Origin: Rhodosporidiobolus odoratus
Lineage: Eukaryota > Basidiomycota > Microbotryomycetes > Sporidiobolales > Sporidiobolaceae
Reading direction: 5' to 3'
DNA length: 64,000 bases
Assembly (NCBI GenBank): GCA_034387635.1
Contig: JAOANU010000004.1
Span: 1,426,001-1,490,000 of the forward strand
Part shown: piece after piece, positions 44,692-61,051 of the stretch
How the letters are laid out: the number at the start of each line of letters is the position of its first letter
How positions within the stretch are numbered: position 1 is the stretch's first letter
Program-made: the position numbers and the translations under genes
Notes under the pieces: model-generated
The model's database searches: none
Told to the model about the DNA's origin: nothing
What the model saw: only the letters and a program-made list of their open reading frames with translations

Positions 44692-46713
44692 CTACTGCCT
44701 TCGACTCTTGCCCAACCTCTTCGGCCCTCCCCGACCTCCACCTGCACCACCACCCCTACCTCCTCGTGCGCCTCCACGTCCCCTGCTTCCTCCCCTTCCC
44801 CTCCCCCCACCACCTCCCCCACGTCCCCCTCCGCCCTCCTCATCCATCTTGAGGTTGTTCTGTTTTCCCCTCCGTCCCGCCCCCTCGCCCCCTCCAAACC
44901 CAAACTTCTTATCCCTCGAGTTCCGGGATAAGCCACGACGAGCCGAACCGGGTCGTTCCGACTCTTTCGTCTTTTGCCGTTTTTGAGGTTGCGAGGAAAG
45001 GGCGTCTTCGAGGGCTACTTCGAAGTCTTCACCACCGAAGGCCGAGTCGTTCTTGCGTTCTGTGGAGGGTGGAGGGCGGGGGACGAGGTGACGGAGTGGA
45101 GAGGGGAGAGATGCAGAGGATAGTAAGGCGAGAGGGCGGAGAGGAAGGAAGAGTCGGGTGGAAACATTGGGTCGACAGGCCAGTGGAGAGGGCGGTAATA
45201 GGGAGCGAGCAGAAAAGTAGTTCGGGAGAGGCACGCAAAAGGATACGGTCAGTACAAGAGGCTCATCAAGATCAAGAAAGCATGATCAGAAAACGCGGTC
45301 GAGACGCACTCTTCTTCAACCCCTCGACTCCCTCCTTCATCCTCTTCTTCTCCACCTCCCTCTCCCTCAACCGTTCCTGCTGAACCTTCTTTCCAAACTT
45401 CTTAGCATCCCTCAGCCGCCTTGCCTCTTCACTCGCCTTCATGCCCGCTTGTTCATCCAACATGCCTTGACGGAGCTTGGCCATATGCGCATCGGTCTTG
45501 ACCATCTCGGCAAAGTAGTCCGAGGGACGGTGGAAGGGAACGGAGGATTGGTCGTGCAGGCTTTCGGCGCGGAGGGCAGCCCACAAGGACTGCTTGTAGC
45601 TGTAGAGAGGGCGTTGGGTCAGTCTGAGGAACTTGGAAGGGGGGACGGGGTCGAGACGTACAAAGCCAACTCGCGCTGCAAGTCGTCCTCAGCATTCACA
45701 CCTTGTTCTCCGCCCAGCGGTTCGGGGTTCGTCAGGGTGAGGGTGTCGAAGAAAGTGGTCGAGGCAGGAAGGGCGATGGAGGAGAGGACGCGAAGCAGGG
45801 CGGTCTGTGCGAACACGCAAGAATCAGAGATCGGGGAATGCGGGTGAAGGGTTGAACGGCCCGAAGGTAGGAGTTTGTTCAAAGCGGCAATGTAAAGAAG
45901 CAAGGCAGGAATGAGTCTGAGCATCAACACGTGCGGCTTCGCGGAGAAGCGAGACGAAGACGCACCTGATCGTTCGTCGTAGTCTTCTCCACCGGCACCA
46001 TGTCCTCCGCATCTGCGTCCACGTCGCTAGCATCCTCGAGCTCTTGCAAAGCAGCCGCAATTTCCTCCTCGTCTTCCTCATCCTCATCGCTGTCGTCCTC
46101 ATCGTCCTCGTCGTCCTCATCGTCAGAGCCTTCGCCCTTCATCTGCTTGAGCAGGGCGATGTCGGAGGCGGAAACGTCGTCGCCCAAAAGCTGTAACCGC
46201 GGACAGAAAAAGTCCGGGAGGAAAACGGGAAATTAGTACACGTAGGATAGGTTCGCCGGTAGAAAGCTTGAAAGAACGCACAGCCATCATTCTCTCAAGC
46301 GCTTGCGGGCTCACGTCCTCGCTTTCCTCTCCCGCTTCTTCCTCGTCGTCTCTTTCGCTCTCGCCATCGAGCGCAGCTCCCTCGCCCAGCCCAAGAGCTT
46401 CCATCATCTCTTCATCATCGCTCCCAGCAAGGACATCGTCGTCGCTGTCGTCGCCTTCACCGGCTTGAGCCTGTTGAACCAGTTTCATGAACGCGTCCTC
46501 ATCGAAGTCTTCAGCGCCCGACAGGTCCTCTTCGTCTTCAGAGGCAGTAGGAGCCTTGTCTTCAAGGTCGGGCGAAGATTCACGGGGCAGAGGGACTTGC
46601 TTGGCTTTGGATAGTTTAGTTGCGGGTGAAGCGGTGGATTTGGATGATTTGGGTTTCGGGGTAGGCCTGGTGTTGGGTTGTTTGCCCTTGGCGGTAGTAG
46701 ACTTCTTTCCCAT
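44692..46713 (-). CDS. EBP2: rRNA-processing protein Ebp2
   Basis: Nucleolar 60S assembly factor needed for 27S pre-rRNA processing. The N-terminus MGKKSTTAKGKQPNTRPTPK is basic. It is followed by long acidic tracts (DDEDDEDDEDDSDEDEEDEE) and then the conserved core: LRVLSSIALPASTTFFDTLT, LYKQSLWAALRAESLHDQSS, RPSDYFAEMVKTDAHMAKLR and ARRLRDAKKFGKKVQQERLR. The C-terminus is an RGG-like Gly/Arg-rich tail (GRGRGGSRGRGGARGGRGGG, then PKRLGKSRRQ), basic and suited to RNA binding. Core order and length match Ebp2 of yeasts and animals. The start at 46713 faces the LLP-type gene only 146 bp away, which points to shared ribosome-biogenesis control. Confidence 0.93.
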
Positions 46714-49768: not shown

Positions 49769-50269
49769 GCTTATGAATCAACTACATCAGAGGGGCTCTG
49801 CTAGGGGTGGGGTAACCCGTCCCTGCAAAGGCATAGAGCTGCATCTCATCCCCTGCCACCTTATAGATGGGTCTAGGGAGCCGTCAGAGTGTACCCATGC
49901 GTCTGCTGGTTCCTCCAGCGAGACCCGTCGATATTGCTTGACCTTCTCAACTCGCCTTCGCTGACTGGCGCTTACACATCCTGTGCGCCTTCAGCTCGAA
50001 AAGTGAGACTTGAGCTCTTCCGAGCCAGAATCGCCAGATGTTCAGCCACCAAAAGCGAGATCTGCCTGGCGTTTTTGCGGACCACAGCAATCATAACTGT
50101 CAAGGAGTGCCTCTCTTACATGCTACCGCTCTTCTCCTACTCCACCTGACGTGAAACTCCAGCCGAACTTGTCTACTGACTGCAGGTTATATCGACCTAC
50201 GCCCACTTCCCAAGGACCGACTGCAAAGAATCAAAGAGAGAGGCAATTTTGTCAGTCTTGTCGGTGCAG
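49769..50269. other. Intergenic holding repeat R1
   Basis: Lies between family copy A and the ZIP stop. It is largely occupied by direct repeat R1 (49938-50150). Confidence 0.5.
49938..50150 (+). repeat. Direct repeat R1 flanking the ZIP gene
   Basis: Begins TTGACCTTCTCAACTCGCCTT and ends CTCTTCTCCTACTCCACCTGA. It is related to R2 (52668-52805), from which it differs by an extra block of about 85 bp after TTCGCTG. Shared stretches include TTGCGGACCACAGCA and ATGCTACCGCTCTTC. It carries the recurring word at 49940-49950. Confidence 0.75.
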
Positions 50270-52356
50270 CTACGGCATGAATGAACCGCTCACCATGCAC
50301 AAAGAGCCCGACAGAAGGCAGAACATGGCAGCCAATACCCGGGGCCAACGAGCTGTCGCCAAGTGGCCATGCATGAACTGGACAAGGAAAATGGAAAATA
50401 TCGAGTAAGCCTGCGTGTATTTCTGTACGAAGCGAGGGGAGCGAGCTGAACATACGTCGTGGTACAGCATCTCGACCAGACCGGCGTAGATGAGTATGCC
50501 CGCGCTAATTGAGTCGAGCACCCCAATGGAAAGCAAAGCCGCGCCTGAGTTGGGGTTGTAGGACGAGTGCACCGCGATTCCAATTGCGACCCCGATGGGC
50601 GTAATGAGCTGCGGTATACCATGAGAGGTGATCAGCGCAGGACTGGGGAAGGCAGAGAGAAGGTATCGCACAGTAAAAGCGCCGGCCATGACCCATTTCT
50701 TCCAAGCAAACCCAACAGGCCAAATCAGCTGCCCGACGCGGCTCCCAAGCGACAGACCCTCAAAGAACTGGTGGAAGACGACGGCTATGAAAAGCGGCTT
50801 CCATTGGTCGCCGCCAGAGGCGCCTAGACTGACACCTATCATGATCCTGTTTGACCCCATGAAGTGCGAAAGAAGGTCAACGTACGCTGGCTGCCACCCG
50901 AGATCAGTACGAGGACATTTACGAGTGGAAGATGATACCCGCCTCGAGTATCAATACGTCAAAGTGAGCTTGCGGCGAAGAAAAATCGGTGTGCTCGTTT
51001 GGCGTCGGTCCATGAGAGTGACCGAAAGCCTCGTTTGATTTGCTATGTGGGGAACGAGTCAGTACATACATAGAAGACGAGTCGATGAAGTGTGTAGCAC
51101 TCACGTGGCACTACGCGGAGTACTAGCGCCGTCGGCATCGGCGAGAAAAGCGGCGGCGGTACGATTGTTGCCCCGGCTCTTCAGCCACCGCATGACAAAG
51201 AAGTCGACCGCGAATACAACGTAGCTGCAGAGGAGGTCACTGTGAGGTAAGGCTCAGTACTAGGAGGCAGCAGCACGCACGTTCCTGCCATGCTGATTGC
51301 AGCGGCAGCTGGCTCGAAAGCCAGCTCACCCAAGCAGGCATTACCGAACATGACAAAAGCGTGGTAAAGCAGGTGTACAAAGGCGGTGCTGATGATGACA
51401 CCTGTGCCACTTCGGGTAGAAGAGCGGGAACGGTCAGAAAGTAAGGAATCAGCGTCGAAAGAAAAGTAGAACATACAAGTGTTTTGCGGCGAAAAAAAGA
51501 TTGCCGAAGAACGCCTTTGACATGTAGGAAGACGAAACTAGCGGAAGCGTAACGCCGAAGAAGGACGAAAGCAGGACAATGCTACCGAACTCAAAGTCAG
51601 CATGCTGGATATTTTGGAGGAGAAGTGGATCCGGCGTACAAGAGCGCAACGATGTGCAGATCCAGGTTGTAGCTGCCTAGGTCGATGTTGTTGCACTGTC
51701 CAGAGCTGGAAATAGGGCCAAACGCATCAATAGGAAAAGGGGACGAGACGGAAGGAACATCGCACCAGTCACCGTGAGTGTGCCCGCCGTGCACGATACA
51801 CTGTCAGAAAGGACGGTGTAAGTCTTACCGTGCATGCCGTACCGCTAGCAGAAACAGGAACGATGGAGACACATGGCAGGATGGGCAGAACAGGCTGATA
51901 AGCTGATAAGCGGGAAAGGTGACTTGCCGTGCTGTCCGAGGCTGCCTCGCTCGCCGACGTTTCACATACCCATACGCTATCCGTGAGCTCGCACAAGGAG
52001 CCATCGTCACAGTCCCAGTGGTCGAGGTGCGAAGTGCAGGTTCGTCCCGGTGGTCCGCCACTCGAAGACTGCGCTTCTTCGACTGCAGTTCCGCCCACAC
52101 AGTCAAAGTGCGATACGGACTGTTCCCAGGTACAGAATGCGCCGTTAGAGCAAAGGAAGGTGTCGGTCTGCGGGGCGGGTACTCGTGAGTGCGCTAATCC
52201 AGTGAGGAAAAGAGGAAAGAAACTGACCCCACTTGAGCTGCACACGCCTTGTCCTACTGGACCTCCCACTAACGAGCCTTCCACGTGCTCTTCTTGCGCT
52301 AGTACAGCTTGTGCAACGCACAGCAGCACCAGCAGAACACTCGAGGCGATGCGCAT
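50270..52356 (-). CDS. ZIP-family metal transporter with Cys/His-rich ectodomain
   Basis: Plasma-membrane ZIP (SLC39) importer, most likely for zinc or iron. ATG 52356 gives a signal peptide (MRIASSVLLVLLCVAQAVLA). An extracellular Cys-rich segment with repeated C-x-(N/D)-G-x-x-C units follows (CSNGAFCTWEQ, DCDDGSLCELTD), then CIVHGGHTHGDWC. TM1 follows YNLDLHIVALL. The TM4/TM5 signatures are GTGVIISTAFVHLLYHAF and FIAVVFHQFFEGLSLGSRVG, with the metal-binding His and Glu. The long cytosolic loop holds His (FGHSHGPTPNEH). The end reads ITPIGVAIGIAVHSSYNPNS, then ILIYAGLVEMLYHD and LLSGSLCMV. One intron (51927-51801) uses a GC donor. The gene lies between direct repeats R1 and R2 and is divergent from the BIM1-like gene. 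Confidence 0.93.
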
Positions 52357-52822
52357 GGTAGCTGAATGAAGATCCGGTAGGGCGCGGGATAGGACGTCGT
52401 TTGCGCCAGAACACGACCTTCAGTAAGCTCAACCTTTGGGGTCCTCGTCCGTGGGAGCGACCCAGAAGTAGATGCTTGGGTGTGTCTGCCAAGAAAGAAA
52501 AGCAGAAAAGCGCCGCGAGTCAAAACATCCTCCCAGTTGGAGTGAATAGCGCCTCCCGCCTGATACCGACTGGAAGGGACACGCTTACGCTATCTTGCAG
52601 TATTGCAGAGCTCTGCAGCGCCCTACGGATGGGTATCATTGGCTAATCTCTTCAGTTTTTGCGCTGGACGACCTTCTCAACTCGCTTTCGCTGGCAAAAC
52701 CTATGCTTGCTTGGCGTTTTCGCGGACCACAGCAGTCACGGCTGTCGCAAAAAGAGTGCATGTTCTGCATGCTGCCTCTTTTCCTCTATCCTACTCCACT
52801 TGAGCAGCTACCTAGCCACATC
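52357..52822. promoter_or_regulatory. Divergent promoter region, ZIP / BIM1-like pair
   Basis: 466 bp between start codons. It holds ACCTT-type words near 52420 (GACCTTCAGTAAGC, CAACCTTTGGGG), which are half-sites of the ascomycete Zap1 element but not a full palindrome. It also contains repeat R2 with its GACCTTCTCAA. Metal control is inferred. Confidence 0.55.
52668..52805 (+). repeat. Direct repeat R2, upstream of the BIM1-like gene
   Basis: Begins CGACCTTCTCAACTCGCTTTC and ends TCCTCTATCCTACTCCACTTGA, 18 bp before the BIM1-like ATG. It is the counterpart of R1 on the far side of the ZIP gene, in the same orientation. It carries the recurring word at 52670-52680. Confidence 0.75.
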
Positions 52823-53940
52823 ATGTCCACTTTTTCGCGCCTCGCCGTTTGCTGCGCACTTTTCTCGTGCGCTCTCGCACACCTCGACATCAACTACCCC
52901 GTCGTACGTTGCACCTCCCACTCGAGACTGCATGGACGCTGTGCTGACGACTTTCATCCAGTCATCGTGGACTCACTCGGAAGAACAGCAAGAAGAAGGC
53001 GGGGTGTGCGGCGGCGGTACTCGCAGTCAAGCGGTTGCCTGGGGTACAGAGAACGCTTTCTTGAGCTTATCTGGGGACGAGGGCCATACCGGTGCGTCTT
53101 CCGCCGCCGTTCTAGTCCGAGACTAGCTTCTGACAGATCCTTTTAGTCCGTGTCCTCATGGTGTCGTCGAACTCGAGCAATGCCGATACCGAAATCTCCG
53201 GCTCTTCGAGCTTTGTAAGTCTGCTGTGCGGATGTACGACCTGACAGAAAGCGCTGATCACGTCTACGCCCGACGTAGCCCCTTACCCTCGTGCAGAACA
53301 CTACCTTTCCTTCTTCCGGCAACCTCTGCCTGCCCCTTACGCTTCCGGCGGACTACATAGTGGGCAGTAAAGCTACCCTATATGTCGAGGCCAGCGGAGA
53401 CGGAGAGACCGTGTCTTCGTGTGCCGGCAAGTCCTGCTGCTTTTCCTTTTCCAGGTGATCTGACAATGACATACGGCTTCTCTACGCAGAGGTGCTGCTT
53501 GTGCCCGCCGATACCAGTGTAACCGTCGTAGTTGAGCACGATGCGCCAATCGTCAATCCTGCTACGGGAGGAAACTACACCTGTTTGCCTTGTCTTCTCA
53601 TTCTGCTCTGCAAGTCCTCTCGAACTAACCCTTTGCCCCTACAGCTTACGACTACTACTGCTCAAACTCTACTATACCCGCCCTCGAGAGTTGCAGCTGC
53701 CATTGCCACGGCGATCACGAGCACTGCGACGAGTCCTGTTCCGCAGAGCGAGTTCAAGCGGCAGCTGAAGAGTGCGCCGCTGTGGCCGGCGGATCGGCTG
53801 ACGCGAGCGCGAGTGGTCCGAGTGCCACAGGGTCGATTGGAGGAACGCAGGATTCCGGAGACTCGAGCGGCGCTGGTGTGCTGAGTTTGTCAGGCGGAGC
53901 GGTGGTTCTGGCTGCGGTGGGCGCGGTGATCATGGCGTAG
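52823..53940 (+). CDS. Secreted GPI-anchored BIM1/X325-like copper-binding protein
   Basis: LPMO-like (X325) extracellular protein; relatives such as Cryptococcus Bim1 bind copper through an N-terminal histidine brace and aid metal uptake. ATG 52823 encodes a 19-residue signal peptide (MSTFSRLAVCCALFSCALA), so His20 becomes the mature N-terminus: HLDINYP, the family's hallmark. The domain continues WTHSEEQQEEGGVCGGG, VRVLMVSSNSSNADTEISGS, GNLCLPLTLPADYIVGSKAT and GETVSSCAEVLLVPADTSVT. It ends with GGNYT joined to YDYYCSNST. A His/Cys cluster (CSCHCHGDHEHCDESC), a Ser/Gly spacer and a hydrophobic C-terminus (LSLSGGAVVLAAVGAVIMA) follow, typical of a GPI signal. One intron (from 53427) uses a GC donor. 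The neighbour ZIP transporter suggests delivery of metal to an importer. Confidence 0.85.
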
Positions 53941-59086: not shown

Positions 59087-61051
59087 CTATTTCGACCTTC
59101 TGTGCACGACCGATGCGCCCACTTCCTGGTACTCGTCTTTGCCGATCCAGAGCTGCAGTGAGAAGGCGAGCGGAAAGAGGTTCCCGGGGATAGGTTGGAG
59201 TCAGCCCAGCGGTTTCGGCACATTGCGGCCTGGCACAGAGAGCTTCAAATAAGGGAGACGGAGGAAGACGGAAGCGCACCTGGTGGAATGTTCCGAGTGA
59301 GGCGAGGATCGATCCGCCCAGCCAGGAGGAGTGGCACCGTTCTGCCGCAGTAGAAGCAGCATCTGCGGTAAGATACGAAGCGACATACGCCGGCGTAGGC
59401 TTCGTAAGTACCGCAACGCCACGAACAACGTCACTGCACAAAGAGGGAAACCCAACATACGAATCTTGACCTTCATACTCGGCGCGAACAACTGCAACTC
59501 ATTCTGCAATCGGTCCACGAAGCCCGTGAGCAAGGTCGTTCCTCCAGTAACGACAACGTTTCCAAGGAGGGTTGCTTGTAGGTCGGGATCGATTTGAACG
59601 AGCGAGGAGCGGATGAGGGCGATAAGACCTTGTAGGTCGGAGTAAGGTTTCGACGGAATCGTTGAGGCTGAGGGCGGGAGGGGGCGAGCAGCAATCTGAA
59701 TATGTAAGGAGGAGAACGCAGCTCGTCAGTGGCTGTAAGCCGCATCGAGCCTCGAGGGGGGAAGAAGAGGAAGAGGGAAGAGCGTACCTCCTTCGGCAGA
59801 AATCGACCGGGGTCAAAGAGCACCTCCGGTGCCGCCAGCCTCTGCAGCCCAACGTAGGTGTTGAAGCCGTCCGGAAACTCGAAAGGTCGCGTTGGCTTTC
59901 CCTGAGCAGCGGTGTCGTTCCAGTTCGGCGCGAGGACTTCGCAAGTAGACTCTTTGAGCTCGTGCATGACTCGCATTTGCTCCAAGTTGTGGTAAGAGGG
60001 GGTGGTTTGTGAGGAAGGTGAGGTGGGGAGGCGGTCCTCGCTGCGAGATCGGATAAGCATAGTGAGCCTCGGCAACCATGTTAGGTACAAGAAGGCACGA
60101 GACTGACCGGAGGACGGCCTTCGAGGGCTGATTGGGCTCGACAGCTTCTTTCGTCTTAACAAGGTAATGCGGCGCGATGGTTATGGGAGGTTGAGCGTTT
60201 TGTAGGGTAGAAAGGAGGATTTCGGACAGAAGGGCGCCGCCGGTTGGCTGTTTTTGAATGGCTTCAGGATATGAGTGGGGTCAATATCGACTAGATGAAG
60301 CCAAAGAGCGACAAGAAACACCTTTTCGCAGAACAAAGCCATCGTATATCGGTGTCACCGTCGCGAGTTCTTCTCCGATGTCGATAATCAGCGCCGAGCC
60401 CTTACCAGCGGCGAAGCTATCGTGAAGATAAGATGGAAGAGAGTATGCTTGTCAGTACTATGCACGGGGCCGGGGTACGGCTCGAAAAAAAGTAGAAAGC
60501 AACGCACGCGCTCATCACCGCTTTGTCCACAGCATAATACGCCGGCGTTTGCCATTTCTCAAAAGCCAACTCAGCCATCTTCTCCTTGTTCTCTTTCGGA
60601 TTCCAGCTTGGCTCCGTTGCCAAGAACGGGTACTCCTCCAGGCTTTTCATCCGCATCCGATCAGTGAACGCATGTTCGATAGCCCGTTCTGCGGCATCCC
60701 AGTCGGTTACGATACCGTCGGAGACGAAAGAGTGCACGGTAGCGTTTGGTCGATAGAGATGGATTGCGTTGCCGTGTATATGTGAAGGTGAAGAGGATGG
60801 ATCCGATGAGGGGATGGAGACGTAGGGAGAGGGGAAGACGCATTTGGGCGAGTCCTCGCCGGCGTACCTGTACGATGAGCGTGTCAGTACGAAGTACGCG
60901 CGGCTCTTGGGGCTCTGACGGTAGCGTTGAGGTGAACAAAGCAATGAGACTGAGCGAAAACAGAAACTCACCCAGCACGTACTGAAGAGCTGCCGATGTC
61001 AAGGACGACTGCACCGACCTCATCTCCACCATACTGCACGGGTGGGACCAT
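59087..61051 (-). CDS. ARP4: Actin-related protein 4 (chromatin remodelling)
   Basis: Nuclear actin-fold subunit shared by NuA4, SWR1 and INO80 (known). It starts MVPPVQYGGDEVGAVVLDIG, SSSVRAGYAGEDSPKCVFPS. Then come VHSFVSDGIVTDWDAAERAI, YPFLATEPSWNPKENKEKMA, ELAFEKWQTPAYYAVDKAVM, GSALIIDIGEELATVTPIYD, YHNLEQMRVMHELKESTCEV, ATLLGNVVVTGGTTLLTGFV and [20 protein letters not shown]. It ends EVGASVVHRRSK, the Arp4-type terminus. Compared with canonical Arp4, the insertions after EVLAPNWNDTA are typical. The nucleotide-site motifs (DIGSSS, DIGEE, TGGTT) are partly degenerate relative to actin, as in this family. About eight exons; the stop is at 59087-59089. Confidence 0.93.

Follow-up and report, generated by a model that had tools for sequence, protein, structure and literature searches.

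A ZIP importer gene paired with a predicted X325-fold protein in Rhodosporidiobolus odoratus: a possible zinc-acquisition cassette resembling PRA1-ZRT1

In published PRA1-ZRT1 pairs the two genes are described as adjacent and divergent, with the importer Zrt1 docking the zinc-capturing protein Pra1 (PMC3386192, PMC11185503). Candida Pra1 is reported to carry the motif CHTHXXGXXHC at its C-terminus, a peptide of which binds zinc, and the protein has been called an entirely unique proteinaceous zincophore (PMC12663325). In a second described system, Bim1 is presented as a copper-uptake factor acting with Ctr1 (PMC7924993). Cbi1/Bim1 has also been reported in cell-wall integrity (PMC12113139), and the fourth ligand of X325 proteins is given as Asp (PMC10952591). 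Here we describe a locus in a 64,000-nucleotide stretch of the genome of the red yeast Rhodosporidiobolus odoratus (the window; positions 1,426,001 to 1,490,000 of contig JAOANU010000004.1, here C4, of a 24.8 Mb assembly in 45 contigs). In it, a ZIP importer gene stands beside a gene for a secreted, divergent X325/BIM1-fold protein that we call XL. We consider it reasonably likely that this pair is a surface zinc-acquisition cassette of the PRA1-ZRT1 kind with an unrelated capture protein. More tentatively, we propose that XL may be a second zincophore of fungi, derived from an X325 copper protein that turned to zinc through replacement of a brace His with Asp and of the axial Asp with Glu and through gain of a Pra1-like tail, and that took the place which PRA1 has in other lineages beside a Zrt1-type ZIP. 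In the literature searched, which took in few subscription papers, we found no X325/BIM1-type protein paired with a ZIP gene.

The ZIP importer gene (50197..52356, minus strand) comprises 12 exons encoding 459 aa in a hand-spliced, homology-guided model, and its 11 introns are all GT-AG or GC-AG. XL (52823..53940, plus strand) comprises 6 exons encoding 265 aa in a spliced model with four GT-AG introns and one GC-AG intron. The genes are divergent, and their start codons are separated by a shared region of 466 bp (52357..52822). These models confirm the divergent ZIP/X325-like pair, with its 466 bp spacing, that an earlier note on this DNA had described; the last ZIP exon (50220-50197) falls outside the left edge given there, 50270. 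The predicted ZIP protein consists of a signal peptide (read by eye), a Cys/His-containing ectodomain (CIVHGGHTHGDCSGQC) and a ZIP membrane domain, the last matched by Pfam Zip PF02535 over residues 150-455 (E 1.7e-54). The ectodomain motif CIVHGGHTHGD-CSGQC begins in exon 3, which with the next intron (60 bases) spans 51706..51800 on the minus strand in the gene model, and is completed in exon 4 (51705-51640). Its HGGHTHGDC portion is conserved in most aligned homologues.

Three homologue searches were run, each scoring at most about 8,000 candidates; the ZIP rows are the best 120 of 384, and absences from these searches are provisional. The ZIP search and the ZIP tree described below were queried with an earlier 479-aa model carrying a 20-residue insert that the homologues lack. 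With this query, homologues were 55-71% identical across 95-100% of its length, and the closest named match among those listed was from R. odoratus (96% over 62% of the query). The closest named match of XL among those listed was likewise from R. odoratus (86%). The genome itself yielded five XL exon hits, all of them XL, and no second copy elsewhere.

XL is predicted to be secreted, with signal peptide cleavage read by eye as ..CALA|HLDINYP. Its hydrophobic, GPI-like C-terminus (glycosylphosphatidylinositol; by eye) indicates that it is probably GPI-anchored. Family searches were silent: XL matched no Pfam family at E<=1, the BIM1/X325 family PF20238 gave no match at E<=1 in the window XL or in any of 20 XL family members, and phmmer against solved structures returned only a weak unrelated match. 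The fold emerged from profile and structure comparison. Alignment of XL with two canonical X325/BIM1 members by hhalign scored 96.7%, and LaX325 was the top match both of the predicted XL structure and of a second model built from 13 curated rows (13 of the 20 XL proteins), whose mean confidence was 56.8 vs 60.2 for the first. By these predictions, XL has the X325 immunoglobulin-like fold.

The metal site of this fold is altered. We aligned 17 of the 20 XL proteins with the window XL (18 rows; three short fragments were dropped). The expected first mature residue, His20 (52880..52882, plus strand), here His1, is kept in all 17 rows that have the position, the remaining row being gapped. Opposite the second brace His, all 18 rows have Asp, which in the window is Asp66 (53076..53078, plus strand). 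Own-genome BIM1 and LaX325 share just two aligned His residues, His1 and one internal His, and the latter falls at the Asp66 position. Around the axial Asp position, the stretch is intact in 15 rows, of which 13 have Glu at this position, one (Auricularia) has Asp and one has Ala; the other three rows are without that stretch through annotation gaps. A His in the segment GDEGH was considered as the missing brace residue and rejected, as it varies among H, Q, N, A and D across the 18 rows and is not at the aligned position. A copper His brace in XL is likewise rejected by the alignment, which retains only the N-terminal His.

The same genome holds a canonical counterpart. Its sole PF20238 match is BIM1 (approximately C1:1179957-1180866, E 9.3e-30), which keeps both brace His residues and the Asp. 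A Ctr copper importer (C1:1182480-1182971, minus strand) lies 1.6 kb from it, with a gene for dynactin subunit 5 between them. BIM1, dynactin subunit 5 and Ctr are thus grouped within about 3 kb (C1:1179957-1182971). Within a single genome, the X325 protein that bears the brace is thus near an importer of copper, and the one that lacks it adjoins a zinc importer. The earlier note had taken XL for an X325/BIM1-like protein with an N-terminal His brace and with zinc, or both zinc and copper, as possible cargo. The fold and the N-terminal His stand, whereas the second brace His is Asp throughout and the axial residue is mostly Glu; copper as cargo is not borne out, the second brace His being lost in XL and the brace-bearing BIM1 being a different gene near Ctr.

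In place of the brace, XL carries a conserved Cys/His tail. This segment (CSCHCHGDHEHCDESC; 53692..53739, plus strand), which we propose as a zinc site from column conservation in the 18-row alignment, follows the pattern CxCHCHx4HCx3C and is found in 18/18 rows. Of its eight Cys/His columns, seven do not vary and one is conserved in 17/18, the one-row exception being a single changed His; the three His columns stand at 17-18 of 18. A strict pattern, C.CHCH.{2,4}.HC...C, matches 16/18 rows and is doubled in four. The XL tail CSCHCHGDHEHC is similar, not identical, to the Pra1 motif CHTHXXGXXHC, and Pra1 of this genome terminates in SCHTHSDGEVHCE. The local alignment score of the XL and Pra1 tails was reached by 2/2000 shuffles, for one pair chosen post hoc. 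The window XL is without HRxxH, PF13933 (PRA1) gave no match in XL at E<=1, and own-genome BIM1 is without such a tail.

Adjacency of XL and ZIP is conserved in relatives. Linkage was judged by consecutive locus tags, which give adjacency and not orientation, or else by contigs of identical length. By these measures, for 11 of the 15 named Microbotryomycete XL proteins the next tag is that of the ZIP gene, two are linked by contigs of identical length only (R. diobovata and Leucosporidium creatinivorum), two are undecided, and none is contradicted. The undecided cases are Rhodotorula babjevae and R. paludigena, for which no same-strain ZIP row is among the matches listed; four further XL proteins, on short contigs, stand outside the count. 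The XL/ZIP tags are 6205/6204 in R. odoratus JCM11641, 3046/3047 in R. microsporus JCM6882, 3881/3880 in R. nylandii JCM10213, 2880/2881 in R. graminis JCM3775, 6653/6652 in R. kratochvilovae JCM10450v2, 4239/4240 in R. glutinis JCM8208, 423/422 in R. azoricus JCM11251, 4775/4776 in R. lusitaniae JCM8547, 2867/2868 in R. poonsookiae JCM10207, 5351/5350 in R. ruineniae JCM8097 and 5243/5242 in Microbotryomycetes sp. JL221. The linkage spans Sporidiobolales, Leucosporidiales and one unplaced Microbotryomycete. The distant basidiomycete Auricularia subglabra also has both an XL and a close ZIP.

In other Microbotryomycetes, ZIPs of this clade are instead linked to PRA1 itself. Three of six such species show consecutive PRA1/ZIP tags (Sporobolomyces blumeae, 5132/5133; S. 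pararoseus, 3545/3546; Rhodotorula pacifica, 5591/5592), and three (S. koalae, S. salmoneus and R. mucilaginosa) have PRA1 and ZIP on contigs of identical length. No XL from these six species is among the matches listed. Among the 30 listed Microbotryomycete ZIP rows, 13 are linked to XL, 6 to PRA1 and none to both. In all 12 XL species with both Pra1 and XL rows, the two are on contigs that differ in length. The PRA1 of this genome is on contig C3 (C3:1507053-1508454), where no ZIP match was found; its closest named match among those listed is from R. odoratus (92%). The earlier note's proposal of a conserved module agrees with the adjacency found in relatives. Its analogy with PRA1-ZRT1 also holds, and is closer than assumed there because the same ZIP clade adjoins PRA1 in six Microbotryomycetes. 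In sister species Pra1 is linked to the same importer as XL, which suggests that this importer may be served by two unrelated proteins with one function. The Pra1 zincophore homologues P0144, P0150, P0152, P0172 and P0188 carry the public label 'Prenylated Rab acceptor protein 1'; two proteins that are both called PRA1 seem to have been confused.

Phylogenies were used to place the two partners. A tree of 49 ZIPs groups those of Microbotryomycetes with one from Auricularia in a single clade (99/99), within which the PRA1-linked ZIPs all fall in one 11-row subclade (99/96). The XL and PRA1 partner labels require one change on this tree, a number as low as which was reached by 0/500 shuffles; the dividing branch is weak (72/49), and 77% of bootstrap trees agree on a single change. 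In the Pra1 tree, the ZIP-linked Pra1s form one clade (100/100) in which R. mucilaginosa and R. pacifica fall among Sporobolomyces, unlike the NCBI placement of R. mucilaginosa in Rhodotorula. Both the Pra1 (P0159, P0164) and the ZIP (P0039, P0042) of R. pacifica and R. mucilaginosa sit among Sporobolomyces, a possible cassette transfer. From the Pra1 placement of these two species, the cassette may have moved or been kept as a unit. The PRA1 linkage is probably the older state, because Kwoniella heveanensis has consecutive PRA1/ZIP tags (07495/07494) and the PRA1-ZRT1 pairing is said to predate the ascomycete-basidiomycete split (PMC3386192, PMC11185503). The present distribution may stem from a swap of partners, from transfer, or from two old cassettes having been retained reciprocally, all being compatible with the trees.

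The zinc-acquisition cassette that we favor would work as follows. XL would be secreted and sit at the cell surface, where its Cys/His tail would capture Zn(II) by the motif CxCHCHx4HCx3C, of which some species have two copies. A second zinc site might exist on the X325 domain, formed by His1, Asp and Glu where copper proteins of this fold have His, His and Asp as ligands. XL would then dock on the neighboring Zrt1-type ZIP and pass its zinc to the Cys/His ectodomain, and ZIP would import it. The shared promoter region would let ZIP and XL rise together in zinc shortage.

The promoter scan lends no support to shared regulation, and we do not draw a regulatory claim from it. With up to 2 mismatches, the sequence ACCTTNAAGGT, which resembles a zinc-responsive element, has a single site between ZIP and XL, palindromic and so present on both strands, and none upstream of PRA1 or BIM1. 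Among the elements scanned, an exact copper element was not found between ZIP and XL. CAAGGT is absent there and occurs once upstream of PRA1 and once upstream of BIM1; TTTGCTC is found in none of the ZIP-XL, PRA1 and BIM1 upstream regions. The ZIP-XL region and the PRA1 upstream region have 10 nine-base words in common, a raw count over both strands.

Several observations weigh against a zinc-acquisition cassette. The motif scan found no exact zinc-responsive element between ZIP and XL. The XL models are of low mean confidence (60.2 and 56.8), with the His1 region below 50, and the tail cysteines may be disulphides. In Auricularia subglabra, XL (P0017) and ZIP (P0050) are on contigs of different lengths, and 11 of the 30 listed Microbotryomycete ZIP rows are linked to neither XL nor PRA1, or are undecided. 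The linkage could reflect gene-order inertia within one class. Finally, of the 13 XL-group species for which a Pra1 is listed, 12 have one that retains HRxxH and its tail. XL is therefore no substitute for a zincophore that has been lost: it occupies the position that PRA1 has elsewhere, without compensating for a missing PRA1. The Pra1 of R. paludigena (P0168) is without HRxxH and keeps its Cys/His tail.

Inertia in its full form would make the adjacency a phylogenetic relic with no functional link, and XL a structural cell-wall protein with disulphide-bonded tail cysteines. Consistent with this, every linked case lies within one fungal class, Cbi1/Bim1 is reported in cell-wall integrity (PMC12113139), and no shared regulatory motif emerged from the scan. 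We nonetheless regard this explanation as unlikely. Gene order has not been frozen, because within the class this ZIP clade has seen its PRA1 linkage change, and no fungal zincophore is known other than the alternative partner, Pra1. Moreover, the tail conserves His besides Cys and is doubled in four rows.

We find it rather improbable that XL is still a Bim1-like copper-capture protein whose ZIP neighbor reflects chance or copper-zinc cross-talk. XL does retain the X325 fold and the mature N-terminal His, Cys/His tails are also able to bind Cu(I), and Bim1 is described as working with Ctr1 in copper uptake (PMC7924993). Against these points stand the loss of the second brace His in every row, the separate brace-bearing BIM1 beside Ctr in the same genome, and a conserved neighbor that is ZIP, not Ctr, in 13 of the 15 named cases, with two undecided. 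A role for XL in buffering or detoxifying zinc, or another soft metal, at the cell surface rather than in supplying it would fit the His-rich linkers of several XL homologues, yet is very improbable given that the linked neighbor imports and does not export.

If XL, built on a copper-protein scaffold, does the job of Pra1, fungi would have evolved extracellular zinc capture at least twice and at the same transporter, and the X325/BIM1 fold would be a platform adaptable to metals other than copper. Two contrasts at the locus amount to a natural experiment: a single ZIP clade is joined by either of two partners, and a single genome has X325 proteins with and without the brace by different importers.

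Other features of the window were also recorded. The region before XL, up to its start codon (52670-52831), has a degenerate direct copy just past the ZIP 3' end (49940-50177). The two are 69% identical across 138 columns, with a further match of 23/24, and no other copy turned up in a genome search. Neighboring genes on the minus strand (45275-45688 and 59204-59725) include EBP2, a gene of rRNA processing, and one for a member of the actin family. Scanning the window for Rfam families and tRNAs gave no match.

Three known systems bracket the pair. Like bacterial ZnuA-ZnuB loci, a comparison drawn in PMC3386192, it would set an extracellular metal binder beside an importer, but the proteins are unrelated and ZnuA-ZnuB uses ATP-binding cassette transport rather than a ZIP. 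With BIM1/Cbi1/X325 proteins (PF20238; LaX325, PDB 6ibh/6ibi/6ibj), XL shares the predicted fold, secretion, the N-terminal His and matching CGG and CA(D/E) stretches. It differs in having Asp for the second brace His, mostly Glu at the axial position, an extra Cys/His tail, no PF20238 match, and ZIP rather than Ctr as its neighbor. The PRA1-ZRT1 (aspf2-zrfC) locus differs in that Pra1 has an HRXXH deuterolysin-like fold whereas XL has the X325 fold; XL has a GPI-like C-terminus (by eye), and Pra1 persists elsewhere in this genome. What the two loci have in common is a Zrt1-type ZIP divergent from a secreted protein with a Cys/His tail, the orientation here coming from the window only.
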